Source: Aeromicrobium massiliense JC14 (lineage in GTDB: Bacteria; Actinomycetota; Actinomycetes; Propionibacteriales; Nocardioidaceae). Taken from it: a stretch of DNA of 64,000 nucleotides. Positions 23,269-35,972 of the stretch are shown piece by piece. The stretch lies in NCBI RefSeq assembly GCF_000312105.1, contig NZ_HE978636.1, forward strand, positions 878,841 through 942,840, given 5' to 3'. Numbering within the stretch: the first letter of the stretch is position 1; every line of letters begins with the position of its first letter. The notes under the pieces are model-generated. The model was given only the letters and a program-made list of their open reading frames with translations, made no database searches and was not told where the DNA came from. Position numbers and translations under genes: made by a program.

Positions 23269-23727
23269 ATGACGCGCACGTTCGCGAGCCTCGACGAGTT
23301 CCGCACCCACGTGGGCGAGGAGCTCGGCACCAGCGACTGGATCACCGTCACCCAGGAGCAGATCAACACCTTCGCCGACGCCACCGGCGACCACCAGTGG
23401 ATCCACGTCGACCCGGAGAAGGCGGCGAACGGCCCATTCGGCACGACCATCGCGCACGGCTACCTGACGCTGTCGCTGCTGCCGGTCATGGTCGGCGGCA
23501 TCTACGAGGTGCAGAACCTCGCGATGGGCGTGAACTACGGCGCCAACAAGATCCGCTTCCCCGAGCCCGTCCCGGTCGACTCGCGCATCCGCGCGACCGC
23601 CACCCTCACCGACGTCACCGACATCGCCATCGGCAGCCAGATCACGATGAAGGTCGTGGTCGAGCGCGAGGGCGCGGCCAAGCCGGCGTGCGTCGCCGAG
23701 GTCGTCTACGTCTACGCAGGAGCCTGA
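23269..23727 (+). CDS. MaoC-family (R)-specific enoyl-CoA hydratase
   Basis: 152 residues, single hot-dog domain. The catalytic stretch ADATGDHQWIHVDPEKA (Asp and His of the hydratase-2 motif) and the following GPFGTTIAHGYLTLSLLPVM are typical of bacterial MaoC-like hydratases such as mycobacterial HtdZ/Rv0130. The enzyme adds water to trans-2-enoyl-CoA to give 3-hydroxyacyl-CoA. It is 1 bp from the acyl-CoA dehydrogenase gene, which makes the preceding oxidation step, and an SDR follows that could oxidise the hydroxyl group; the three give a short beta-oxidation-like set. Transcription should be controlled by the operator at 23234. Confidence 0.88.
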   Translation: MTRTFASLDEFRTHVGEELGTSDWITVTQEQINTFADATGDHQWIHVDPEKAANGPFGTTIAHGYLTLSLLPVMVGGIYEVQNLAMGVNYGANKIRFPEPVPVDSRIRATATLTDVTDIAIGSQITMKVVVEREGAAKPACVAEVVYVYAGA

Positions 23728-23728
23728 C

Positions 23729-24949
23729 ATGCACTTCGCCCACGACGAGAAGACCACCGAGCTGCTCGAGCGCGTCACCGCGTTCATCGACACCGAGGTC
23801 GTCCCGCGCGAGAAGGTCCTGCACGAGCAGGTCGCCGAGAACGTCCGGACCGACTCCTGGGCGCGCCCGGCCGTCGTCGGCGAGCTGCAGGCGCTGGCCA
23901 AGCAGCAGGGGCTGTGGAACTTCTTCCTGCCCGGCGAGGAGGGCGCCGGCCTGACGAACCTGCAGTACGCGCCGCTCGCCGAGGCCACCGGACGCTCGAT
24001 CCAGCTGGCGCCGGCCGCGTTCAACTGCGCCGCGCCCGACACCGGCAACATGGAGGTGCTCGCCCAGTTCGGCACCGACGAGCAGAAGAAGCAGTGGCTC
24101 GAGCCGCTGCTCAGCGGTGAGATCCGCTCGGCCTTCGCCATGACCGAGCCGGACGTCGCGTCGTCGGACGCCACCAACATCGCCCTGCGCATCGAGCGCG
24201 ACGGCGACGAGTACGTCATCAACGGCCGCAAGTGGTGGATCACCGGGGCGATGAACCCGGACTGCCGGATCCTCATCGTGATGGGCAAGACCGACCCGGA
24301 CGCCGAGCGGCACCGCCAGCAGTCGATGGTGCTCGTCCCGCGCGACACCCCGGGCCTGGAGTTCGTGCGCGGCATGCACGTGTTCGGCTACCAGGACCGC
24401 GACCACGGCGGCCACGCCGAGCTGCGGTTCACCGACGTCCGTGTGCCGGTCAGCAACGTCATCGGCGCCGAGGGCGAGGGCTTCGCCATCGCCCAGGCCC
24501 GGCTGGGGCCGGGCCGCATCCACCACTGCATGCGCTCGATCGGCCTGGCCGAGCGGGCCGTGGAGCTCATGTGCGAGCGGGCGTCGTCGCGCGTCGCGTT
24601 CGGCAAGCCGATCGCCGACCAGGGCGTCGTCCGCGACTGGATCGCCGAGTCGCGGGTCAGGCTGGAGCAGCTGCGCCTGCTCGTGCTCAAGACCGCGTGG
24701 CTCATGGACACGGTCGGCAACAAGGGCGCGCACACCGAGATCCAGGCGATCAAGATCGCCACCCCGCAGACCGTGGAGTGGATCCTCGACAAGGCCATCC
24801 AGGTGCACGGCGCCGGTGGCCTGGGCCAGGACTTCTGGCTCGCCGAGGCGTTCGCCGGCATCCGCACGCTGCGGTTCGCCGACGGCCCGGACGAGGTGCA
24901 CAAGAACTCGCTGGCCAAGGCCGAGCTGCGCCGTCATGCGCGTCGCTGA
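23729..24949 (+). CDS. Acyl-CoA dehydrogenase (ACAD10/11-like)
   Basis: 406 residues. An N-terminal helical domain is followed by the FAD-binding stretch FAMTEPDVASSDATNIA and KWWITGA, then the C-terminal helical domain ending RTLRFADGPDEVHKNSLAK. The RTLR-ADGPDEVH ending, with Asp in place of the usual catalytic Glu of the EGT motif, is typical of ACAD10/11 and related actinobacterial FadE enzymes, so activity is likely. The substrate may be branched or 4-hydroxy acyl-CoA, unknown here. AGGAG precedes the ATG, which is 1 bp after the MaoC stop. The 3' end overlaps the SDR start by 14 bp. Confidence 0.9.
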   Translation: MHFAHDEKTTELLERVTAFIDTEVVPREKVLHEQVAENVRTDSWARPAVVGELQALAKQQGLWNFFLPGEEGAGLTNLQYAPLAEATGRSIQLAPAAFNCAAPDTGNMEVLAQFGTDEQKKQWLEPLLSGEIRSAFAMTEPDVASSDATNIALRIERDGDEYVINGRKWWITGAMNPDCRILIVMGKTDPDAERHRQQSMVLVPRDTPGLEFVRGMHVFGYQDRDHGGHAELRFTDVRVPVSNVIGAEGEGFAIAQARLGPGRIHHCMRSIGLAERAVELMCERASSRVAFGKPIADQGVVRDWIAESRVRLEQLRLLVLKTAWLMDTVGNKGAHTEIQAIKIATPQTVEWILDKAIQVHGAGGLGQDFWLAEAFAGIRTLRFADGPDEVHKNSLAKAELRRHARR

Positions 24950-25748
24950 CGGCACGAGCGCCGTCGTCACCGGTGCCGCGGGCGGCATCGGGGCGGCCCT
25001 CGCGCAGCGGCTGCTGGAGCGGGGCGCGTCGGTCACGCTGAGCGACCTGGACGCCGACCGGCTCACCGCCACGGCGTCCGCGCTCGAGGCCGAGCACCCC
25101 GGACGCGTCGCGCACCTGGCCGGCGACGCGGCCGACGAGGCTTGCCTGCGCGAGCTCGTCGCGACGGCCGAGGGCCTGGCCGGGCCGGTCGCGCTGTTCG
25201 TGGCCAACGCCGGCATCTTCCGCGGCTTCGGGCTCGAGGCGGACGACGCCGCGTGGCAGTCGTCCTGGGACGTCAACGTCATGGCCCACGTGCGGGCGGC
25301 GCGGCTGCTCGTGCCGCAGTGGCTCGAGCGCGGCGAGGGCTGCTTCGCCGTCACGGCGTCCGCCGCCGGTCTGCTCACCCAGCTCGGGCTGCCGACGTAC
25401 GCGGTCACGAAGCACGCCGCCGTGGGGTTCGCCGAGTGGCTGGCGGCGACCTACGGCGACCGCGGTGTGCAGGTCGCGGCGCTGTGCCCGATGGGCGTGC
25501 GTACCCCGCTGGTCGAGCAGGCCGAGGCGACGCTCGACGAGCAGGCCCGGCTGGGCATGCGGTCGGTCACCGAGGCCGGCGCCGTGCTGGAGCCGCTCGA
25601 GGTGGCCGACTCGCTGCTCGCGGCGATCGACGAGGGACGCTTCCTGGCCCTGCCGCACGCCGAGGTCGGCACGATGCACGCCCGCAAGGCCGCCGACCCG
25701 GACCGCTGGATCGCCGGCATGCAGCGCCTGCGCCGCTCGCTCGACTGA
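24936..25748 (+). CDS. Short-chain dehydrogenase/reductase
   Basis: 270 residues starting inside the 3' end of the acyl-CoA dehydrogenase gene. The cofactor motif TGAAGGIG (residues 12-19) and the acidic pair LSDLDADR suggest NAD(H) preference. NAGIF, the catalytic Ser in VTASAAG, and YAVTK (Tyr and Lys) complete the classical SDR triad. The reaction would be oxidation of a 3-hydroxyacyl-CoA or related alcohol, given its operon partners. The end region (MHARKAADPDRWI) resembles actinobacterial SDRs of fatty acid and sterol pathways. It converges on the F420-type reductase gene 21 bp away. Confidence 0.87.
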   Translation: MRVADGTSAVVTGAAGGIGAALAQRLLERGASVTLSDLDADRLTATASALEAEHPGRVAHLAGDAADEACLRELVATAEGLAGPVALFVANAGIFRGFGLEADDAAWQSSWDVNVMAHVRAARLLVPQWLERGEGCFAVTASAAGLLTQLGLPTYAVTKHAAVGFAEWLAATYGDRGVQVAALCPMGVRTPLVEQAEATLDEQARLGMRSVTEAGAVLEPLEVADSLLAAIDEGRFLALPHAEVGTMHARKAADPDRWIAGMQRLRRSLD

Positions 25749-26488: not shown

Positions 26489-27793
26489 CTATTCCGTGAC
26501 GGCGCCCACGGTGGCCGGCGTCCGCGCCCGGTGCCGGGTCGAGATCGACGCCGTGATGACGGTGAACGCGAGCACCGCGACGAGGCACACGACCAGCCAC
26601 GCACGCCAGCCGCCGGTCGCGTCCACGACCCGCGGCGCGAAGAGCACCGCCGCCAGGATGCACAGCCGGCTCACCATGTGCTGCAGGCCGAACGCGGTGC
26701 CCTGGGCGTCGGGGTGGATCTCCTCGACGTGCTCGGAGAAGCTCGCCTGCCAGGTGCCGAAGGTGGCGGCCACCGAGCCGCCCAGCGCGACGAACAGCAC
26801 CACGACGACCCAGACCGGCAGGTCGGCGCCGGACGACGTGACGGCGATCAGGACGGCGAGGCACGCGCAGGCCGCGACGCCGCCGGAGAGCAGGTACGGC
26901 TTGCGGGCCTGGGTCGTGTCGGACTTGCGCGCCCACACCAGGCTGCCGAGCAGGGCGGCCGCCCAGAAGGACATCGTCACGACGGACGCCTCGCGGACCC
27001 CGACGTCGAGCTGGTCGACCAGCATCTTCTGCGCGTAGGTGTTCATGGTGGCGAGCAGGACGAACATGAGCGACATCGCGGCCACGTGCGCGGCGACGAC
27101 CCGGTGCTGCAGCAGCGCCCACGCGCCCGGCCGGGGACCGTCGGTGGCCCGGTGCTCGACGTGCTCGTCGGAGTGCCGGGTGTGCTGACGCACCTCGGGG
27201 GCGAGGTCCTGCAGGAAGACCATGACGAGCACCGAGCCGACGAAGGCGAAGCCGGCCATGATGTACAGCTGCGAGTGCCAGGTGCCGAAGAAGTCGAGCG
27301 TCGCGGCGGCGATGCCGGCGGCGACGAAGTTGGCGCCGAGCGAGCCCCACGACCAGAACGCGAACGCCTGGGCCCGGCCGACGCGCGGCGTGAAGTCGCG
27401 GATCAGCGGCTGGGTGCCGGACATCGCGACGCCCTCGACGAACGCGAGCAGGATGCGTGCCGCGGTGAACTGGCCGGGCGTGTGCGACCAGGCCATGAAC
27501 AGGCAGGATGCCGCCGACAGGAACATCCACGGGACGATGACCCGCACGCGGCCGACGCGGTCGACCAGGCGTCCGCCGACGAAGCCGGCGAGCGCGCCGC
27601 ACAGCAGGGACGCGGCGGTGATCAGGCCGTAGGTCTTGAGCGACATGCCGATGTCGTCGAGCAGCAGCGGCAGCACCGGTGCCAGCTGGCCCTCGTACGC
27701 GGAGATGAAGCACGCGATGACGACGACGGCCACGAGGACCCGGCGCCTGGACCCGGTCGGGTACTCGGTGAGCTCGCGGCGGTAACGCATCAT
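26489..27793 (-). CDS. MFS transporter of the TetR-box regulon (possible alkyl sulfate importer)
   Basis: 434 residues starting at MMRYRREL, 4-5 bp after GGGAAG. About twelve helices are visible, with the MFS motif GGRLVDRVGRVRV between helices 2 and 3. Residues about 180-215 form the central loop. An operator-like palindrome TGGACACTCTGTCTAG (27810-27825) lies 17 bp upstream of the start and matches those before the alkyl sulfatase and acyl-CoA ligase genes. The transporter is therefore probably controlled together with them. The sulfatase has no signal peptide, so import of its substrate is needed; import by this protein is inferred. Export of a toxic surfactant is the alternative. Confidence 0.82.
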   Translation of the reverse strand: MMRYRRELTEYPTGSRRRVLVAVVVIACFISAYEGQLAPVLPLLLDDIGMSLKTYGLITAASLLCGALAGFVGGRLVDRVGRVRVIVPWMFLSAASCLFMAWSHTPGQFTAARILLAFVEGVAMSGTQPLIRDFTPRVGRAQAFAFWSWGSLGANFVAAGIAAATLDFFGTWHSQLYIMAGFAFVGSVLVMVFLQDLAPEVRQHTRHSDEHVEHRATDGPRPGAWALLQHRVVAAHVAAMSLMFVLLATMNTYAQKMLVDQLDVGVREASVVTMSFWAAALLGSLVWARKSDTTQARKPYLLSGGVAACACLAVLIAVTSSGADLPVWVVVVLFVALGGSVAATFGTWQASFSEHVEEIHPDAQGTAFGLQHMVSRLCILAAVLFAPRVVDATGGWRAWLVVCLVAVLAFTVITASISTRHRARTPATVGAVTE

Positions 27794-27809
27794 GTCGCTT
27801 CCCTTCTTC

Positions 27810-27825
27810 TGGACACTCTGTCTAG
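27810..27825. promoter_or_regulatory. TetR-type operator 1 (MFS gene)
   Basis: TGGACACTCTGTCTAG. It aligns position by position with operators 2 (28523-28538) and 3 (35208-35223): TGGAC, then six variable bases, then TGTCYA with one shift-free alignment. It lies 17-32 bp before the MFS start. Confidence 0.7.
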
Positions 27826-27886
27826 AAAGTGTCGGCGAGGGGACTGTACGTGATGTGATGCGGCGCACACAAGCCGTCGGCTCGAG

Positions 27887-28483
27887 CTACTCGGGGTCGA
27901 AGCCGCTGGCCCAGTACCGGCCGCGGCGCGAGAGCTCCACGAGCGTCTCGATGACGTCGTCCAGGGCGGGGCGCGGGGCGGCGGACTCCAGCCACCACAG
28001 CAGCACGGACGTCTGCTCGCCGGCCCAGGCCCGCGCGACCACCCGCAGGTCGACCCGCGGCGTGACGCCGAGCGCGTCGGCCCGGGCCCGGAAGACCTCG
28101 AGCGCCCGGTCGCCCCACGCGTCCGCGAGCAGGCGCAGGCCGCGGCCGTCGCCCTCTCCGCGCAGGATCATCCGGTACAGGTCGGCGTGCTCGGCCGCGT
28201 GCCGGAAGAGGGTGTCGACCGGCTTGCCGGTGAACCCCTTGTCGTTGACGTCGGTGACCGGCGCGAGGCGGGTGTCGAGGTCGTCGATGACGCTGTGCAC
28301 GACGTGGTCGTACAGCTTCTCCTTGTCGGGGAAGTGCGTGTAGAAGGTCGCGCGGCCGACCCCGGCCTCGGCGACGATGTCCTCGACGGTCAGGGCCGAG
28401 TAGCCCCGGGCCAGCGACAGGGACACCAGGGCGTCCCGCAGCAGGGCGCGCGTCCGGGTGCGGCGCTTGTCCTCGCGTTCCAT
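27887..28483 (-). CDS. TetR-family regulator of the alkyl sulfate regulon
   Basis: 198 residues from MEREDKRRT. The helix-turn-helix spans about residues 30-55 (LTVEDIVAEAGVGRATFYTHFPDKEKLY), the typical TetR recognition region. The C-terminal ligand domain is not recognisable. The gene is divergent from the sulfatase gene, with operator 2 (28523-28538) in the 115 bp between them, 40 bp from its own start, so self-regulation is expected. The same operator type precedes the MFS gene and the acyl-CoA ligase operon. A likely inducer is an alkyl sulfate, or the fatty acyl-CoA derived from it. The link is inference based on operator sharing. Confidence 0.85.
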   Translation of the reverse strand: MEREDKRRTRTRALLRDALVSLSLARGYSALTVEDIVAEAGVGRATFYTHFPDKEKLYDHVVHSVIDDLDTRLAPVTDVNDKGFTGKPVDTLFRHAAEHADLYRMILRGEGDGRGLRLLADAWGDRALEVFRARADALGVTPRVDLRVVARAWAGEQTSVLLWWLESAAPRPALDDVIETLVELSRRGRYWASGFDPE

Positions 28484-28522
28484 GCCGCAGTTGTAGCAGA
28501 GTGCGGCCGGGCCGCTGCCTGT

Positions 28523-28544
28523 TGGACGAAGTGTCCAGTAATGT
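28523..28544. promoter_or_regulatory. TetR-type operator 2 plus -10 box of the alkyl sulfatase gene
   Basis: TGGACGAAGTGTCCAG (28523-28538; arms TGGAC/GTCCA) followed directly by TAATGT (28539-28544), a good -10 box for the plus-strand sulfatase gene. A repressor on the palindrome would block RNA polymerase. The site is between divergent TetR and sulfatase genes. Confidence 0.72.
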
Positions 28545-28598
28545 CGGTACGGACGACTGCCGGTGCCCGGCGCGCCGGTCGAGCGGGGGAGCGACCCG

Positions 28599-30374
28599 AT
28601 GGACGAGCAGACCCACGACGCGGACCGCGGCTTCCTGGCCGCCCCGCTGACCGACCAGGTGCTGGACGCGTCCGGTCGGGTCGTGCACGACGGCACCGCC
28701 TACGCGTTCCTCGACGCCGAGGCACCCGGCACCGTGCACCCCGGGCTGTGGGAGCACAGCCGGCGCAGCGCCCGCGCCGGCCTGTACGAGGTCTGCGAGG
28801 GCCTGTACCAGGTGCGCGGCACCGACCTGGCCAACCTCACCGTCGTCGAGGGCGACACCGGCGTGGTCGTCATCGACACCCTCACGTCCGCCGAGACGGC
28901 CGCCGCCGCGCTCGCGCTCTACCGCTCCGTGCGCGGCGAGCGACCGGTGCGCGGCGTCGTCATCACCCACCCGCACGCCGACCACTTCGGTGGCATCGAC
29001 GGGGTGCTCGAGGGCGCGGGCGACGTGCCGGTCGTCGTGCCCGAGGGGTTCGCCGAGCACGCGGTGAGCGAGAACCTGCTCGCCGGGCCGGCGATGTCGC
29101 GTCGGTCGGCGTACATGTACGGCACGGCGCTGGAGCCGTCGCCGACGGGCCACGTGGGATGCGGCCTCGGCCCCCGCCTGGCCCGGGGCCGCACGGGTCT
29201 GCCGCGGCCGACCCGCGAGGTGCGCCGCACCGGCGAGGTCGTCGAGATCGACGGCGTCGTCATGGAGATGCAGCTGACGCCGGGCACGGAGGCGCCGGCG
29301 GAGATGAACGTCCTGCTGCCCGGGCTCCGGGCGCTGTGCGTGGCCGAGAACGCCGTCCACTCGATGCACAACATCATCACGCTGCGCGGCGCCCAGGTCC
29401 GTGACGCCCGGGCGTGGGCGCGCTACCTGGACAAGACGATCGAGCTGTACGCCGACCGGGCCGACGTCGTCCTGGCCACGCACCACTGGCCGACGTGGGG
29501 CACCGACCGGGCCCGGCACTTCCTGGAGGACCAGCGCGACGTCTACGCCTACCTGCACGACCAGACCGTGCGGCTGATGAACCGGGGGCTCACGCCGCGC
29601 GAGATCGCCGAGCAGCTCGAGCTGCCGCCGGCGCTGGCCGAGTCGCCCGCCGGTCACGGCTACTACGGCTCGCTCAGCCACAACGTCAAGGGCATCTACC
29701 AGCGCTACCTGGGCTGGTACGACGCCAACCCCGCCCGCCTGTGGCCGCTGCCGCCCGAGCAGGAGGCGCGACAGTGGATGCGCGTCGTCGGCGGCACCGG
29801 ACGCGCGCTGGCCGCGGCCCGCGAGCTGGTGCTCGAGGGCGAGCTGCGGTTCGCCGCGACGCTGCTCGACCACGTCGTGTTCGCCGACCCGCAGGAGCGG
29901 GAGGCCCGCGAGCTGCTCGCCGAGGTCTACCGGCGGCTGGCGGCGCAGACCGAGAACGCCACCTGGCGCAACTGCTTCCTGACCGGCGCGCTGGAGCTCG
30001 TCGAGGGCACGCCCCCGGCGGCCGGCCCGGGGGGTGGGTTGCTCGGCGGCGTCGGGGTCGAGGAGCTGCTGGACGTCCTGGCGGTGCGGGTCGACGGACC
30101 GCGGGCCTGGGACGCTGACGCCTCGTTCGACTGGGAGGTGCCGGGCGAGGGCACCTGGCGGCTGTGGCTGCGCCGCGGGGTGCTGCGCCACCGCCGGCTC
30201 GTCGAGGGAGCCGAGCCCGGTGCCGCGGTCGTGCGGGCGGACGTCCGCGGGCTCGTCGGGCTGCTGCGCGGCGACGCGGCCGGGGCGCAGGTCAGCGGCG
30301 ACGGCACGCGCGTGGGCGCGGTGCTGGGAGCGCTGGAGCCCGCGTCCGCGCCGTTCGCGATCGTCGAGCCGTAG
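28599..30374 (+). CDS. Alkyl/aryl sulfatase, metallo-beta-lactamase fold (SdsA1/BDS1-like)
   Basis: 591 residues. The N-terminal MBL domain carries THPHADHFGG (first zinc ligands), AENLLAG-type AMSRRSAYMYG, ENAVHSMHNI and ATHHWPTWG, all matching alkyl sulfatases such as SdsA1. The middle region is the alkyl-sulfatase dimerisation domain (HDQTVRLMNRGLTPREIAEQLELP, YYGSLSHNVKGIYQRYLGWYD). The C-terminal 130 residues look like an SCP2-type lipid-binding domain. The enzyme splits alkyl sulfates such as dodecyl sulfate into alcohol and sulfate. No signal peptide is present, unlike secreted SdsA1, so it should act in the cytoplasm. Start ATG follows GGGGA; operator 2 lies 61 bp upstream. Convergent with the next gene. 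Confidence 0.88.
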   Translation: MDEQTHDADRGFLAAPLTDQVLDASGRVVHDGTAYAFLDAEAPGTVHPGLWEHSRRSARAGLYEVCEGLYQVRGTDLANLTVVEGDTGVVVIDTLTSAETAAAALALYRSVRGERPVRGVVITHPHADHFGGIDGVLEGAGDVPVVVPEGFAEHAVSENLLAGPAMSRRSAYMYGTALEPSPTGHVGCGLGPRLARGRTGLPRPTREVRRTGEVVEIDGVVMEMQLTPGTEAPAEMNVLLPGLRALCVAENAVHSMHNIITLRGAQVRDARAWARYLDKTIELYADRADVVLATHHWPTWGTDRARHFLEDQRDVYAYLHDQTVRLMNRGLTPREIAEQLELPPALAESPAGHGYYGSLSHNVKGIYQRYLGWYDANPARLWPLPPEQEARQWMRVVGGTGRALAAARELVLEGELRFAATLLDHVVFADPQEREARELLAEVYRRLAAQTENATWRNCFLTGALELVEGTPPAAGPGGGLLGGVGVEELLDVLAVRVDGPRAWDADASFDWEVPGEGTWRLWLRRGVLRHRRLVEGAEPGAAVVRADVRGLVGLLRGDAAGAQVSGDGTRVGAVLGALEPASAPFAIVEP

Positions 30375-30377
30375 GTC

Positions 30378-30971
30378 TCAGCCCGCGGCGAGCAGGCGGG
30401 ACTTCTGGGCCGTGCGGATCTTCTTGGCCGACAGGGCGTCGCCGTAGATCAGCACGGACTCGTCCTTCTCGACCACGCGGAAGGCTTCGGCGGTGATGCG
30501 GACCTTCGGCAGGTCGCCCAGGCACGAGCGCTTCACGGTGGCGGTCATCCAGCCGTTCCTGCCCTCGCGGCCCTTCAGGCTCGCCGAGCACGCGTGGTCG
30601 TAGTCGGCGTCCATGACGTCGGCGTCCGAGGAGTCGAGGTCCCCGTAGAGCTCGAAGTCGGGCTCGTCGCTGCCGGGCGCGTAGAACGCGACGCTCAAGC
30701 CCGCAGCCGACTTCAGCCGCGAGAACTTCACCGTGACGCTGACCGTCCTGCGCCGGTGGTCGAACCGCACGAGCTTGGCGTCGATGCCGGACTTCTTGCT
30801 CTCGGTCCGGCCCAGGCCACGCTCCTGGTAGCCCTCGTCCCACATGGTCGTCAGCACGACGTCCGCCCGCTTGTCCTTGATCGAGGCCCGCTCGGCGTGG
30901 GCGGCGGTGCCGGTGCCCAGCACGGTGACGGTCGCGAGACCGGCGGCGATGGCGAGGGAGGTGAGGCGCAC
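30378..30971 (-). CDS. Small secreted protein, tandem copy 1
   Basis: 197 residues from GTG (VRLTSLAIAAGLATVTVLGTGTAAHA), a clear signal peptide with cleavage after AHA. GGAAG precedes the start. The mature protein is rich in Lys/Arg/Asp, with a KKSGIDAKLVRFDHRRRTVSVTVKFSRL stretch, a CSASLKG and a CLGDLPKVR cysteine, and a C-terminal LSAKKIRTAQKSRLLAAG. It looks like a beta-sandwich protein but I do not recognise a family. Copy 2 lies 60 bp away on the same strand. Both ends of the two genes are nearly identical while the middle has diverged. Confidence 0.72.
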   Translation of the reverse strand: MRLTSLAIAAGLATVTVLGTGTAAHAERASIKDKRADVVLTTMWDEGYQERGLGRTESKKSGIDAKLVRFDHRRRTVSVTVKFSRLKSAAGLSVAFYAPGSDEPDFELYGDLDSSDADVMDADYDHACSASLKGREGRNGWMTATVKRSCLGDLPKVRITAEAFRVVEKDESVLIYGDALSAKKIRTAQKSRLLAAG

Positions 30972-31030
30972 GGCGCTTCCTTCGGGGTGGGGTGAAGGAG
31001 GGCGTGCCGCCCGTCCTCCGGGAAGAGGTG

Positions 31031-31636
31031 TCAGCCCGCGGCGAGCAGGCGGGTCTTCTGCGGCGTGCGGATCTTCTTGGCCGACAGGGCGTCGTGGTAG
31101 GTCACGAGCGTGTCGTCGTCGAAGAGCGTCCGGAAGGCGCCGACGGCCAGACGGACCTCCGGCAGGTCGCCGAAGCACGCGCGGTCCACGGTCACGGTCA
31201 CCCAGCCGTTCTTGCCCCGACGGCTCGCGACGTCGCCCGTGCAGATCGGCTCGTAGTCGTCGGGCATGGTGACGTAGGCCTGCGAGTCGCCGACGCGTCC
31301 GGAGACCTCAAAGTCGGCCTTCTTGCTGCCCGGCGCGTACACCTCGACGTAGACGCCGCTGTCGGACTTCAGCCGCGAGAACCGCACCGTGACGCTGACG
31401 GTCTTGCGGCGGTGGTCGTACCGGACGCTCTTGGCGTCGATGCCGGACTTCTTGCTCGAGGCCGTGTTGAGCTGGCGCTCCTCCTGGACCTCGAAGTCGT
31501 CCATGGCGTACGTCGTGCGCACGACGTCCGCGCGCTTGTCCTTGATCGAGGCCCGCTCGGCGTGGGCGGCGGTGCCGGTGCCCAGCACGGTGACGGTCGC
31601 CAGGCCGGCGGCGAGGACGAGGGAGGTGAGGCGCAC
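31031..31636 (-). CDS. Small secreted protein, tandem copy 2
   Basis: 201 residues, paralogue of the preceding gene. The signal peptide (VRLTSLVLAAGLATVTVLGTGTAAHA) and the following ERASIKDKRADVV are nearly the same; the central region KKSGIDAKSVRYDHRRKTVSVTVRFSRLKS is similar; and the end LSAKKIRTPQKTRLLAAG is shared. Cysteines occur in equivalent places (PICTGDV, RACFGDLPEVR). GGAA precedes the GTG start. Function unknown; the two genes probably come from a recent tandem duplication, and copy 2 may be the first gene of the pair's transcript, as it is upstream. Confidence 0.72.
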   Translation of the reverse strand: MRLTSLVLAAGLATVTVLGTGTAAHAERASIKDKRADVVRTTYAMDDFEVQEERQLNTASSKKSGIDAKSVRYDHRRKTVSVTVRFSRLKSDSGVYVEVYAPGSKKADFEVSGRVGDSQAYVTMPDDYEPICTGDVASRRGKNGWVTVTVDRACFGDLPEVRLAVGAFRTLFDDDTLVTYHDALSAKKIRTPQKTRLLAAG

Positions 31637-31799
31637 GGCGTTCCTTCGGTGGTGCGGACGAGGGCGGGCGTCGTGCCCGTCCTCCCGGATCGTAGGTCCG
31701 CGCAGCGCTCCGCGGAGCCGTTCGGCCGGATTGGCGGGACGTCTGGGACCCTGGGTCGCCGTCCACCGGGCGGGACGAGGCACCGACGAGGAGGGGACG

Positions 31800-32381
31800 A
31801 TGGACGGAGAGCGGCTGGTCGCGCGGAGCCGGTTGCGCTCGGCGTGGCCGATCCTGCTGGTGACCTCCACGTCCGGCGTGGTCATCGGAGCGGTCGTGGG
31901 GCTCGGCCTCGCCCTGTTCGACCCGGAGTTCGCGACGACCGAGGCGAAGGTCGACGCCGTGCTGATCTGTGCCGCGATGCTCGGACCGGTGGGCATCCCC
32001 GCGACGTTGGTGCCTCTGCTCATGTGGTGCGTGTCGGCCGCCCGCGTCAGCTACTGGGTGGCGGGCTCCCGCGTCGTCGCCCGACGCGGTCGACGGATCG
32101 TCGTGGAGCTGGACGCCCGCGACGTCGCGTCCGTCCGGGTCATCGGGTTCTCCCGCGTGTGGCCGATGCTCGTCGGCCCCGGGACGATCTGGTCGTTGCA
32201 CACCGACCTTCCCCACATCGGGTACGAGACGACGTCCCCGGTGCGCGGCCAGAGCTTCCACACGCTGCCGAGGATCCTCCTCGTCGGCAGGGGCGTGCCC
32301 GAACGCATCCGTGACGACCTCTTCGCCGCCCTGCGGCTGGCGTCCGTGCCGGAGTCCGTCCTGGACCCGTCGACCCGGTAG
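31800..32381 (+). CDS. Two-helix membrane protein of unknown function
   Basis: 193 residues from ATG 31800, preceded by GAGGGGA. Two membrane helices (about 16-38 and 55-80) are followed by a soluble domain of about 110 residues with RIVVELDARDVASVRVIGFSR and IGYETTSPVRG stretches, reminiscent of PH-like domains but not assigned. It does not share the TetR operator. The terminator hairpin at 32388-32427 separates it from the convergent acyl-CoA dehydrogenase. Confidence 0.6.
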   Translation: MDGERLVARSRLRSAWPILLVTSTSGVVIGAVVGLGLALFDPEFATTEAKVDAVLICAAMLGPVGIPATLVPLLMWCVSAARVSYWVAGSRVVARRGRRIVVELDARDVASVRVIGFSRVWPMLVGPGTIWSLHTDLPHIGYETTSPVRGQSFHTLPRILLVGRGVPERIRDDLFAALRLASVPESVLDPSTR

Positions 32382-32387
32382 TGGACG

Positions 32388-32427
32388 CACGAGGGCCCGG
32401 GACGCGTCGGCGTCCCGGGCCCTCGTG
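32388..32427. terminator. Perfect 17-bp bidirectional hairpin
   Basis: CACGAGGGCCCGGGACG (32388-32404) pairs with CGTCCCGGGCCCTCGTG (32411-32427) around CGTCGG. It lies between convergent genes (stop at 32381 and at 32434) and can end both transcripts. No T-tract. Confidence 0.75.
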
Positions 32428-32433
32428 ATCCTG

Positions 32434-33606
32434 CTACGCCAGCAGCGCCTTGGCGATGCCGTTGCGCTGGATCTCCGACGAGCCGGTCAGCACGCGGAAC
32501 ATGCGCAGCTTCTTGAACGCCGACTCGATCTCCGAGCCCTGCACCATGCCCGCCTTGCCGTGCAGCTGCATCGCGTCGTCGGCGATGCGGAAGGCGTTCT
32601 CGGCGACGAACAGCTTGCACATGAACGCCTCGGTGGCCGGACGCCGGCCGGCGTCGAGCGCGGCCAGCGCGTCGTACGTCATCGACCGGGCCGCGTAGTA
32701 GGCCGTGGCCATGTCGGCGATGCGGTGCTGGACGGACTGCAGGTCGGCCAGTCGCCCGCCGAAGACCTTGCGCTCCTTGGCGAAGTCGATCGTCAGCTCC
32801 AGCACGCGCCGGGCCTGGCCCAGCACCGTCGGGCAGTGCAGCAGCCGGTTCACCACGACGCGTCCGACGCCGATCCGCAGGCCGTCGCCGACCTCGCCGA
32901 GCAGCTGGTCGGGCCCGACGTAGCAGTCCTCCAGCACGATGTCGGCCTCGATGTGCTCACCCGAGAGGGGCACATCGCCGGGCACGACACGACAGCCGGG
33001 GCTGTCCAGGTCGACGAGGAAGGCCGAGTAGCGCTCGTCCTCACCAGCCATGCGGGCGACGAGCACGGAGAAGTCGGCGAACGGCCCGGCCGAGCTGAAC
33101 ACCTTGTGGCCGGTGATGCGCCAGCCGTCGCCGTCGGGGGTGGCCGTGGTGGACATCGCGCGCACGTCCGAGCCGGCGTCGGTCTCGGTGAGCGAGAAGC
33201 AGCAGGCGCGCTCGCCGCGCACGACCGGCAACAGGTAGCGCTCGACCTGCTGCGGGGTCGCCACCTCGAAGATCGAGCCGGCGCGCAGCGGGCCGCCCAT
33301 GTCGCCGAGCACGGAGTGGTTCAGGACGCGGCCGGACGCGCCGACCTCCTCCTTCAGCACGGCCAGCTCGGTGAACGACAGGCCGCGCCCGCCCAGCTCG
33401 GGCGGCAGGTGGACGCCGTAGAAGCCCAGCTCGCGGCTGCGCTTCCAGACCGGCTCGAGCACGGAGCGGTCGTAGACCGAGGCGGGGCCCAGGTCGTGGG
33501 CGCGTTCGTACTCGGCGAGCTCGCCGTCGAGGTAGGCGCGCAGGTCGGCCACCAGCGGGCCGAGCGTGGGGGAGTCGTCGTAGGTCGGACGCAGGTCGAA
33601 GGTCAT
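32434..33606 (-). CDS. Acyl-CoA dehydrogenase in the alkyl sulfate regulon
   Basis: 390 residues. The flavin domain carries CFSLTETDAGSDVRAM and the typical KVFSSAG; the C-terminal domain ends MQLHGKAGMVQGSEIESAFKKLRMFRVLTGSSEIQRN. The catalytic glutamate of the usual EGT motif is replaced by Thr in LTGSSEIQ; some ACADs carry the base at another helix position, so activity is not excluded. Expected reaction: alpha,beta-dehydrogenation of an acyl-CoA. It is the second gene of an operon, 9 bp after the acyl-CoA ligase stop, and should follow operator 3 (35208-35223). The pair would activate and oxidise the chain that the sulfatase releases. Confidence 0.88.
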   Translation of the reverse strand: MTFDLRPTYDDSPTLGPLVADLRAYLDGELAEYERAHDLGPASVYDRSVLEPVWKRSRELGFYGVHLPPELGGRGLSFTELAVLKEEVGASGRVLNHSVLGDMGGPLRAGSIFEVATPQQVERYLLPVVRGERACCFSLTETDAGSDVRAMSTTATPDGDGWRITGHKVFSSAGPFADFSVLVARMAGEDERYSAFLVDLDSPGCRVVPGDVPLSGEHIEADIVLEDCYVGPDQLLGEVGDGLRIGVGRVVVNRLLHCPTVLGQARRVLELTIDFAKERKVFGGRLADLQSVQHRIADMATAYYAARSMTYDALAALDAGRRPATEAFMCKLFVAENAFRIADDAMQLHGKAGMVQGSEIESAFKKLRMFRVLTGSSEIQRNGIAKALLA

Positions 33607-33615
33607 GGGGGCTCC

Positions 33616-35187
33616 TCAGTTCACGGCCCGGTCGGCGCCGGTCCAGTAGCGGGCGCGGACGGCGCGGCGGTCGATCTTGCCGTTGCGGTTGGCCGGCAGG
33701 GCGTCGACGACGTCCACCGACCGGGGCTTCTTCATGCGGTCGAGCCGGTCTGCGCAGAACGCGACGAGCTCGTCGACGTCGATCGTCGCGCCCGGCTTGG
33801 GCACGACCACGGCCTTGACCGCCTCGCCCCAGGTCTCGTCCGGCACGCCCACGACGCAGGCCTCGGCCACGGCGGGGTGCTCGTAGACGGCCGCCTCCAC
33901 CTCGCTGCAGTAGATGTTGAAGCCGCCGGAGATGATCATGTCCTTCAGCCGGTCGACGATGAAGACGTAGCCGTCCTCACGCATCCAGGCCACGTCGCCG
34001 GTCAGCACCCAGCCGTCGCGGAAGGTCTCGGCGCTCAGCTCGGGCTCGTGCCAGTAGGACGTCACGCAGTCGTCGCCGCGCACCACGAGCTGGCCGGTCG
34101 TGCCGGCGGGCACGGGGCGAAGCTCGTCGTCGACCACCATGACCTCGGTGTCGTAGAGCGCGCGCCCGCACGAGAGCAGCACGTCGGGGTCGGACTCGAT
34201 GCCGCGGACGACGTCCTCGGCGGTCAGCACGAGCACGCCGCTGGTCGTCTCCGCCTGGCCGTAGCCCTGGGCGACGATCGGGCCGAAGAAGTCGACGGCG
34301 TCGCGCAGGCGCTGCGGCGACACCGGGGCGCCGCCGATCGTGAGGCTGCGCAGCGACGACAGGTCGTACGTGTCGCGGCCGGGCAGGCCGAGCAGCAGGT
34401 TCAGCATCGTCGGCACCATGAACGTCGTGGTCACCCGCTCGCGCTCGACGAGGGCCAGGAAGTCGGCCGGCGTGAACGCCGGCATGACGACGACCTTCGC
34501 GCCCCGGCTCAGCGCGGCGAGCAGCACCATGCCCGAGGCGTGGGTGATGGGGCCGGCGACGAGGTAGGTGTCGTGCCAGGTCAGCGCCCCGCCGGGCTCC
34601 ATGAGCCGCTTGCGGACGTTCGCCAGCCGGTTGCCGGTGGTCTGCACCGCGGCCTTGAGCCGGCCGGTCGAGCCGGACGTGAAGTTCAGGACGCAGGGGG
34701 CCTCGAGCGGGACGTCGGGGCCCTCGAAGCGCGGGTCGGCGCCGGCGATCAGGCCCTCGTACGACACGGCGTCCGCGGTGTCGGGGCGGCCCTCGGCGTC
34801 CAGGACGACCACCGTGGCGTCGCGGCCGGAGCGCTTGACCGCGTCCACGGCGAGCGAGGCGTGGCTCGGGTCGGCGACGACGACGCGGACGTCGGCGTCC
34901 TCGACGACGTGGGCGGCCTCCTCCAGCCCGAGCCGGAAGTTGATCGGCACGCGCAGGAAGCCGCCCTTGACGAGCGCGACCTCGACCTCGACGAGCTCGG
35001 CGCGGTTCGCGGCGTAGGTGGCGACGGCGGCGCCGGCGGGCAGGCCGAGCGCGGCGAGTGCCGAGGCCAGCCTGCTGGACCGTTCGTCCAGCTGGGCGTA
35101 CGTGAGGCGCTGGTCGCCGCACACGAGGGCCTCCTGCTGCGGCCAGTGCTGCGCGGCGCGGGAGACGAGTCGACCGAGGTTCGGCAT
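33616..35187 (-). CDS. Acyl-CoA ligase (AMP-binding) in the alkyl sulfate regulon
   Basis: 523 residues from MPNLGRLV, preceded by GGAAGG. The adenylating motifs are present: FTSGSTGRLKAAVQ, QGYGQAETTSG, TGDVAWMREDGY and the C-terminal NRNGKIDRR lysine. The enzyme activates a carboxylic acid to its CoA thioester using ATP. The chain-length preference is not evident; a fatty acid derived from an alkyl sulfate is inferred from the shared operator (35208-35223), which lies 21-36 bp before the start. The upstream open frame (from 35241) has no start signal and would overlap the operator, so MPNLGR is preferred. Confidence 0.9.
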   Translation of the reverse strand: MPNLGRLVSRAAQHWPQQEALVCGDQRLTYAQLDERSSRLASALAALGLPAGAAVATYAANRAELVEVEVALVKGGFLRVPINFRLGLEEAAHVVEDADVRVVVADPSHASLAVDAVKRSGRDATVVVLDAEGRPDTADAVSYEGLIAGADPRFEGPDVPLEAPCVLNFTSGSTGRLKAAVQTTGNRLANVRKRLMEPGGALTWHDTYLVAGPITHASGMVLLAALSRGAKVVVMPAFTPADFLALVERERVTTTFMVPTMLNLLLGLPGRDTYDLSSLRSLTIGGAPVSPQRLRDAVDFFGPIVAQGYGQAETTSGVLVLTAEDVVRGIESDPDVLLSCGRALYDTEVMVVDDELRPVPAGTTGQLVVRGDDCVTSYWHEPELSAETFRDGWVLTGDVAWMREDGYVFIVDRLKDMIISGGFNIYCSEVEAAVYEHPAVAEACVVGVPDETWGEAVKAVVVPKPGATIDVDELVAFCADRLDRMKKPRSVDVVDALPANRNGKIDRRAVRARYWTGADRAVN

Positions 35188-35207
35188 GGGTGTCCTTCCG
35201 ACGTTTC

Positions 35208-35223
35208 TGGACACAGTGTCTAT
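35208..35223. promoter_or_regulatory. TetR-type operator 3 (acyl-CoA ligase operon)
   Basis: TGGACACAGTGTCTAT, best of the three copies: inner core GACACAGTGTC is an 11-bp perfect palindrome (GACAC-A-GTGTC). It lies just upstream of the ligase gene and only 10-25 bp before the divergent DUF202 start, so both could be affected. Confidence 0.72.
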
Positions 35224-35232
35224 CATGGTGGT

Positions 35233-35637
35233 GTGGAACACCAGGGGCCCGGCCAGGCCAGGCGGTCGACGACGGCGCGGCGCGAGCGTCGGCCGCGTCG
35301 CGTCTACGGCCAGGGCAGCGAGCCCGACCCGCGCTTCACGCTCGCCAACGAGCGGACGTACCTCGCCTGGGTGCGCACCGCCCTGGCCCTCACGGCGGCC
35401 GGGGTGGCTCTCGACGCCGTCGCGCTCGACCTCGACGCCCGGCTGCAGGTCGTGGTGAGCCTCGTCCTGGTGGTGCTCGGCGCGTCCGTGCCGCTGCAGG
35501 CGTGGCGTGGCTGGGCTCGGACCGAGCGGGCGCTGCGCCGTCAGGAACCGCTGCCAGCGTCCGCGTGGACCCCCGTGCTCGCCGTCGGTGTGACGGCGGC
35601 GGGCGTCGCGCTGACGGTCGGGATCGTCCTGGCATGA
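35233..35637 (+). CDS. DUF202 family membrane protein 1
   Basis: 134 residues from GTG 35233, with a long basic N-terminus (RRSTTARRERRPRR) that is more usual in Actinobacteria. PRFTLANERTYLAWVRTALALTAAGVAL is the DUF202/YidH signature: the NERTYLAW stretch plus the first helix. Three membrane helices in total. YidH-type proteins have no agreed function. The gene lies just downstream of operator 3, and its own start signal is unclear; TetR-box control is possible. The stop overlaps the second DUF202 gene (ATGA). Confidence 0.82.
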   Translation: MEHQGPGQARRSTTARRERRPRRVYGQGSEPDPRFTLANERTYLAWVRTALALTAAGVALDAVALDLDARLQVVVSLVLVVLGASVPLQAWRGWARTERALRRQEPLPASAWTPVLAVGVTAAGVALTVGIVLA

Positions 35638-35972
35638 CCCTGTTCGACCCGGGCCTGCAGCCCGAGCGGACGGCGCTGGCCTGGCGTCGCACGGCGCTCT
35701 CGACGGCGGCGGCCGCGGCCGTGCTGGCGCGAGTCGCGCAGGCGGAGGGCGACCACGTCGCCGTCGCCACCTCCCTCGTCGCCGGGGCGGTCGCGGCGAC
35801 CTGCTGGCTGCTGGCCGGACATCGCTACGAACGGGTCTCGGTGTCGCTGCGCGAGTGCGGCGACCTGCGCCACGCCGCTCTGGGTCCGGCGGCGGCGACC
35901 CTGTGCGCCGCCAGCCTGCTCCTGTCGCTGGGGGCGCTGCACCTGGTGCTCGCCGGCGGCGGTGCGTCCTGA
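35634..35972 (+). CDS. DUF202 family membrane protein 2
   Basis: 112 residues, ATGA-coupled to the preceding DUF202 gene. PGLQPERTALAWRRTALSTAAAA matches the second DUF202 sub-type (QPERTxLAWRRT), followed by two more helices. The two proteins likely form a complex in the membrane, as the paired arrangement is common. Function unknown. Confidence 0.85.
   Translation: MTLFDPGLQPERTALAWRRTALSTAAAAAVLARVAQAEGDHVAVATSLVAGAVAATCWLLAGHRYERVSVSLRECGDLRHAALGPAAATLCAASLLLSLGALHLVLAGGGAS

Follow-up and report, generated by a model that had tools for sequence, protein, structure and literature searches.

SdsA1, the alkyl sulfatase of Pseudomonas, is an exported enzyme with a LysR-type regulator, and the acyl-CoA-responsive TetR-family proteins Thermus FadR and Mycobacterium tuberculosis FasR control fatty acid genes. 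The SdsA1-type system of Pseudomonas is associated with growth on alkyl sulfates (PMC5426288). Our study concerns a 64 000-nucleotide stretch of the genome of Aeromicrobium massiliense JC14 (contig NZ_HE978636.1, positions 878 841 to 942 840; hereafter the window), in which a TetR-family regulator gene lies near genes for a type III alkyl sulfatase of the metallo-β-lactamase (MBL) fold, a major facilitator superfamily (MFS) transporter, and an acyl-CoA ligase and acyl-CoA dehydrogenase (ACAD) operon. With a probability of roughly 0.7, judged from sequence, we propose that these genes belong to a TetR-repressed regulon for the use of a sulfate-ester amphiphile, probably a primary alkyl sulfate.

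Compared with SdsA1/SdsB1, the window enzyme is of the same sulfatase family and has the same zinc ligands and primary-alkyl Tyr/Gly pair, but it has no signal peptide and its neighbour is a TetR gene with several operons. Its top-scoring solved structures were those of the sec-alkyl sulfatase Pisa1 (4av7 and 2yhe), which has Ser233/Phe250 and prefers secondary sulfates (PMC5426288), whereas the window sulfatase has Tyr174/Gly191 instead. FadR and FasR have the TetR fold in common with the window regulator, but identity is only ~20 %, and both the operator and the gene set are different. In Escherichia coli, the yidG-yidH-yidI-yidJ-yidK-yidL locus places a DUF202 gene near a putative sulfatase, a transporter and a regulator gene, as here, although yidJ is annotated as a putative sulfatase/phosphatase rather than an MBL alkyl sulfatase and the locus has no ligase or ACAD.

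Results

The proposed regulon is marked in the window by three copies of one 15-bp palindrome, TRGACRNNNYGTCYA (consensus TRGACA-N3-TGTCYA). The first-pass annotation had reported similar sites at 27810, 28523 and 35208, and all three are present at those positions, but its spacing, TGGAC-N6-TGTCYA, was wrong, as the true gap is N4. Operator 1 (TGGACACTCTGTCTA, 27810..27824; none of the sites has an assigned strand) lies 16 bp ahead of the start codon of the MFS gene, and a counterpart occupies the same position in Nocardioides and Glutamicibacter. Operator 2 (TGGACGAAGTGTCCA, 28523..28537) lies between the divergent TetR and sulfatase genes, 39 and 61 bp from their respective start codons. 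Operator 3 (TGGACACAGTGTCTA, 35208..35222) separates the ligase operon from a divergent pair of DUF202 genes, and is 20 bp from the ligase start codon and 10 bp from the GTG start of DUF202 gene a.

Matches to the pattern TRGACN5GTCYA were counted with the same pattern that was searched for, and the counts gauge rarity rather than affinity: the window had four, where 0.09 would be expected and none of 100 shuffles gave as many, and there were eight in the whole 3.32-Mb genome against none for the reversed control pattern. Half of the eight lie upstream of start codons (27810, 28523, 35208 and G000:C1:1339488) and the other half within coding sequence, including one in the ligase gene (TGGACCGTTCGTCCA, 35076..35090) that was rejected as an operator as its core differs. 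The consensus is not frequent at random places in the genome, and its intergenic matches are confined to these promoters. Allowing up to two mismatches was uninformative, with 130 genome matches compared to 82 in the control. A one-mismatch site at C2:82163, 37 bp upstream of a G5/resuscitation-factor-like gene, was judged likely to be due to chance.

In the sister genome of Aeromicrobium IC_218, whose TetR is 98 % identical, operators 1 and 3 are uninformative on conservation, because they and most of their flanks are identical to the reference. Operator 2 keeps both arms there, with diverged core and flanks, and at the fourth promoter site, about 430 kb from the window sites, a 21-base stretch over the site is unchanged and the flanks differ.

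Relatives of the TetR protein, 41–70 % identical to it, were found in Nocardioides, Nocardiopsis, Glutamicibacter, Rhodococcus, Nocardia and Saccharopolyspora. The comparison set comprised 25 TetR loci outside Aeromicrobium, although many of the Nocardioides, Rhodococcus and Nocardia loci belong to closely related bacteria and do not count as independent; the 25 loci contained 33 exact operator sites against 0.2 expected in shuffles. Next to these TetR genes, with the operator upstream, are genes for a ligase, a dehydrogenase, a transporter, a sulfatase, a DUF202 protein or a serine hydrolase. A ligase gene stands beside TetR in 19 of the 25 loci, with an exact site between the two in 17 and a one-mismatch site in the other two. 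Sites are conserved upstream of orthologues in other genera, and the genes often form one contiguous run: in Nocardioides, Nocardiopsis and Glutamicibacter, ligase, ACAD and sulfatase make up a single gene run behind one operator. A common palindromic operator, rare in the genome and conserved with synteny elsewhere upstream of co-functional genes, supports the earlier proposal that one TetR regulon joins the transporter, the sulfatase and the ligase/ACAD operon. A further conserved site in two Nocardioides genomes sits at the IspG start and was judged unrelated.

The content of these loci varied between genera. Sets with MFS, ACAD and full-length sulfatase genes were found in Nocardioides (four strains), Nocardiopsis and Glutamicibacter, and the Glutamicibacter run encodes, on one strand, ligase, ACAD, sulfatase, ACAD, thiolase, short-chain dehydrogenase (SDR), MaoC and a zinc alcohol dehydrogenase. 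Rhodococcus and Nocardia sets contain ACAD, DUF202 and a NylB-like serine hydrolase, to which some Nocardia add a sulfatase with a twin-arginine translocation (Tat) signal. Saccharopolyspora has a shorter MBL protein with an alkyl-sulfatase dimerisation domain, and a similar one occurs in Nocardioides ChNu-153. Six Nocardia loci with the same TetR family encode a formylglycine (FGly) sulfatase, unrelated to the MBL enzymes, together with a formylglycine-generating enzyme (FGE). Exact sites were present at four of these six, one-mismatch sites at L097 and none at L100, which has the most distant TetR. As the six do not form one branch in the TetR tree, the class of sulfatase under this one regulator family may have switched repeatedly; a single origin could also account for this pattern.

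The regulator itself (198 aa; 27887..28483, minus strand) has a TetR_N helix-turn-helix domain (Pfam, 6.8e-14) and an all-helical fold in its predicted structure, with a predicted local distance difference test score (pLDDT) of 87. Matches at E ≤1e-20 were seen in only 10 of 295 genomes of its family, the Nocardioidaceae. The predicted model resembles many TetR structures, among them the acyl-CoA-binding FasR and FadR, a likeness that lends slight support to an acyl-CoA as the ligand.

The sulfatase (591 aa; 28599..30374, plus strand) has the MBL domain (Lactamase_B, PF00753), the dimerisation domain (Alkyl_sulf_dimr, PF14863) and the SCP2-like C-terminal domain (Alkyl_sulf_C, PF14864) of its class, and its relatives in the PDB are Pisa1, YjcS, SdsAP and SdsA1. 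All seven zinc ligands are retained (H124, H126, D128, H129, E231, E250 and H295), including the glutamate peculiar to alkyl sulfatases. Y174 and G191 stand at the positions of Pisa1 Ser233 and Phe250, a primary-alkyl signature that is kept across the full-length regulon-linked sulfatases; equivalent residues have been assigned to zinc binding and to primary-alkyl preference (PMC5426288). The N-terminus, MDEQTHDADRGF, starts at the catalytic region with no SdsA1-type signal peptide, as had been noted previously. This differs from the Tat-signal forms in Nocardia and supports a predicted cytoplasmic enzyme of the primary-alkyl type. Between the sulfatase and ACAD genes, two small proteins that resemble each other and have apparent signal peptides are encoded at 30378-31640; no homologue is listed in the loci of other genera and no operator lies near.

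Regulon membership appears wider than the first-pass annotation had suggested. The transporter, the sulfatase and the ligase/ACAD operon stand, but the DUF202 pair and a serine-hydrolase unit had been missed. The latter was found via its operator alone: the fourth site (TGGACAGAGTGTCCA, G000:C1:1339488) lies between genes for a NylB-like serine hydrolase, whose nearest solved relatives are 6-aminohexanoate-dimer hydrolases, and a divergent aldo/keto reductase. In Rhodococcus and Nocardia this hydrolase comes after the ligase and ACAD genes. The regulon would therefore have at least two further transcription units, namely the DUF202 pair and the serine hydrolase, the latter perhaps together with the aldo/keto reductase. 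In Glutamicibacter, an unlinked serine hydrolase related to this one ends a run headed by a peptide-type ATP-binding cassette (ABC) transporter, which starts ~330 bp below another exact site (L183:71-5131).

The transporter (434 aa; 26489..27793, minus strand; Pfam MFS_1, 1e-45) is a candidate importer of an anionic substrate. Its best NCBIfam matches, which were below the cut-off, were to anion-symporter subfamilies (PgtP, galactonate), and it adjoins TetR with an operator upstream in Nocardioides, Glutamicibacter and Saccharopolyspora. The ligase (AMP-binding, FadD-like; 33616..35187, minus strand; Pfam AMP-binding, 1e-81) has FadD8 as its closest solved structure. Its gene is followed after 9 bp by the ACAD gene (32434..33606, minus strand; Pfam), and this operon is retained in other genera at 65–78 % identity. 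A MaoC hydratase, ACAD and SDR cluster (23278..25748, plus strand; Pfam) is likely to provide later β-oxidation steps, and its MaoC is 57 % identical to that of the Glutamicibacter operon. Because no operator was found at this cluster, its membership of the regulon is presumptive.

The DUF202 proteins a (YidH-like; 35233..35637; 3.9e-15) and b (35634..35972; 2.3e-14) are encoded on the plus strand by genes that overlap by 4 bp, and both have the PF02656 domain. As read from sequence, gene a has a possible leaderless −10 element, TATCAT, at 35221-35226. DUF202 was detected in 16 of the 25 comparison loci, where it belongs to gene runs with the MFS, ligase or sulfatase genes. A profile of the regulon-linked DUF202 proteins and E. 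coli YidH matched yeast VTC1, the DUF202-like membrane subunit of the VTC polyphosphate polymerase (E=2e-5). A fold search also placed VTC chains on top, but weakly (Foldseek E 0.1), with a low-confidence model (pLDDT 69) built on an alignment of window and comparison-locus sequences only.

Discussion

In the proposed mechanism, the TetR repressor would bind the 15-bp palindrome at four promoter regions, those of the MFS gene, of TetR and the sulfatase, of the ligase-ACAD operon and DUF202 pair, and of the serine hydrolase and perhaps the aldo/keto reductase. In the presence of a sulfate-ester amphiphile, the repressor would be released by a metabolite, for which an acyl-CoA made by the ligase is the likeliest candidate. 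The MFS protein is presumed to import the anion, which the cytoplasmic zinc sulfatase would split into alcohol and sulfate. Dehydrogenases outside the regulon would then oxidise the alcohol to an acid, which the ligase would convert to acyl-CoA. ACAD would start β-oxidation, whose later steps probably fall to the nearby MaoC-ACAD-SDR genes. The earlier scheme lacked the enzymes linking alcohol to acid. None is clearly in the Aeromicrobium regulon, but the zinc alcohol dehydrogenase of the Glutamicibacter operon supplies the alcohol-oxidising step there.

Several observations weigh against this proposal. Besides the missing alcohol and aldehyde dehydrogenases, no MBL sulfatase was seen within the stretch retrieved at the Rhodococcus, two Nocardia ligase-type and N. 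insulae loci, and the substrate shared by all the loci may therefore be something other than a sulfate ester. Hydrolysis in the cytoplasm would not hold for those Nocardia whose sulfatase has a Tat signal. Amide-containing substrates are hinted at by the M20 amidohydrolase gene, with its matching site, that is added in Nocardioides, and by the oligopeptide-type ABC transporter that accompanies the serine hydrolase in Glutamicibacter. Furthermore, a flavin-monooxygenase/ligase locus in Nocardia (L185 and L186) has a different TetR and a look-alike site, TAGACA-N3-TGTCTA; the motif is therefore not unique to the window TetR, and other TetR proteins may recognise related operators.

Another reading is a regulon for a carboxylic acid, including its ester or amide conjugates, with the sulfatase as one of several interchangeable hydrolases, a TetR that senses acyl-CoA, and alkyl sulfates not the main substrate. 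Ligase, ACAD and TetR are the commonest core, and the loci that lack the sulfatase (Rhodococcus, N. insulae and some Nocardia) either have a NylB-like hydrolase after the core or show no hydrolase. The M20 gene and the Glutamicibacter transporter run agree with such a role, which would also account for the lack of an alcohol dehydrogenase in the Aeromicrobium regulon. However, the recurrence of sulfatases from two unrelated superfamilies and the Glutamicibacter alcohol dehydrogenase favour sulfate esters and alcohols, and we consider this account possible but unlikely. It is very improbable that the genes serve sulfur scavenging, in which sulfate starvation would induce them, the released sulfate would serve growth and the carbon part would be incidental. 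Many sulfatases are sulfate-starvation genes (PMC3920027) and the genome has another sulfate-ester island (C3:430-452 kb), which includes a SulP permease, but the regulated set comprises acyl-CoA ligase, ACAD and, in Glutamicibacter, β-oxidation genes rather than sulfate-assimilation genes, and its regulator is a TetR, not a known sulfur regulator. That the three sites arose by chance or belong to another regulator, with no common regulon, is scarcely credible, since despite the look-alike site of an unrelated TetR in Nocardia and the predicted nature of TetR binding, the genome has eight matches to none in the control, its non-coding exact matches occur only at regulon promoters, and site and synteny are conserved across many genera.

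The proposed sulfate-ester regulon provides a predicted repressor and operator for the use of alkyl sulfates by actinobacteria; this process has so far been studied mainly in Pseudomonas. No TetR regulon of this kind was found in the open-access literature searched, and the regulator and DNA sites recurring in several actinobacterial genera are apparently undescribed. As one regulator family is associated with two unrelated sulfatase classes, the regulator and operator could serve as queries in genome searches for sulfate-ester pathways.

The regulon also places the DUF202 family, whose function is uncharacterized, in a defined pathway. By analogy with VTC1, the pair might form a membrane conduit for an oxyanion, handling the sulfate, or else the sulfate ester, involved in desulfation in the cytoplasm. 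We regard this as a doubtful suggestion; if true, it would give the family a bacterial role and explain its recurrence with two sulfatase classes and beside yidJ. The presence of DUF202 at Rhodococcus loci that have no sulfatase speaks against a function confined to sulfate. A phylum-wide link between DUF202 and FGE was rejected, as near pairs (<10 kb) were found in only two genomes of one family among 149 genomes of the phylum.

Two minor observations concern sites and sulfatases elsewhere. In five Nocardioides genomes, an operator-like site, in one case with a mismatch, overlaps the start codon of the M20 amidohydrolase gene (L069:6462, L067:4225 and others). The second sulfate-ester island of A. 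massiliense (G000:C3:430000-452000; L163 and L164), for which no exact or one-mismatch operator is listed, encodes a SulP-type sulfate permease, a type I arylsulfatase, an FGE, LuxR-type regulators and a second MBL alkyl sulfatase that is 48–49 % identical to that of the window.

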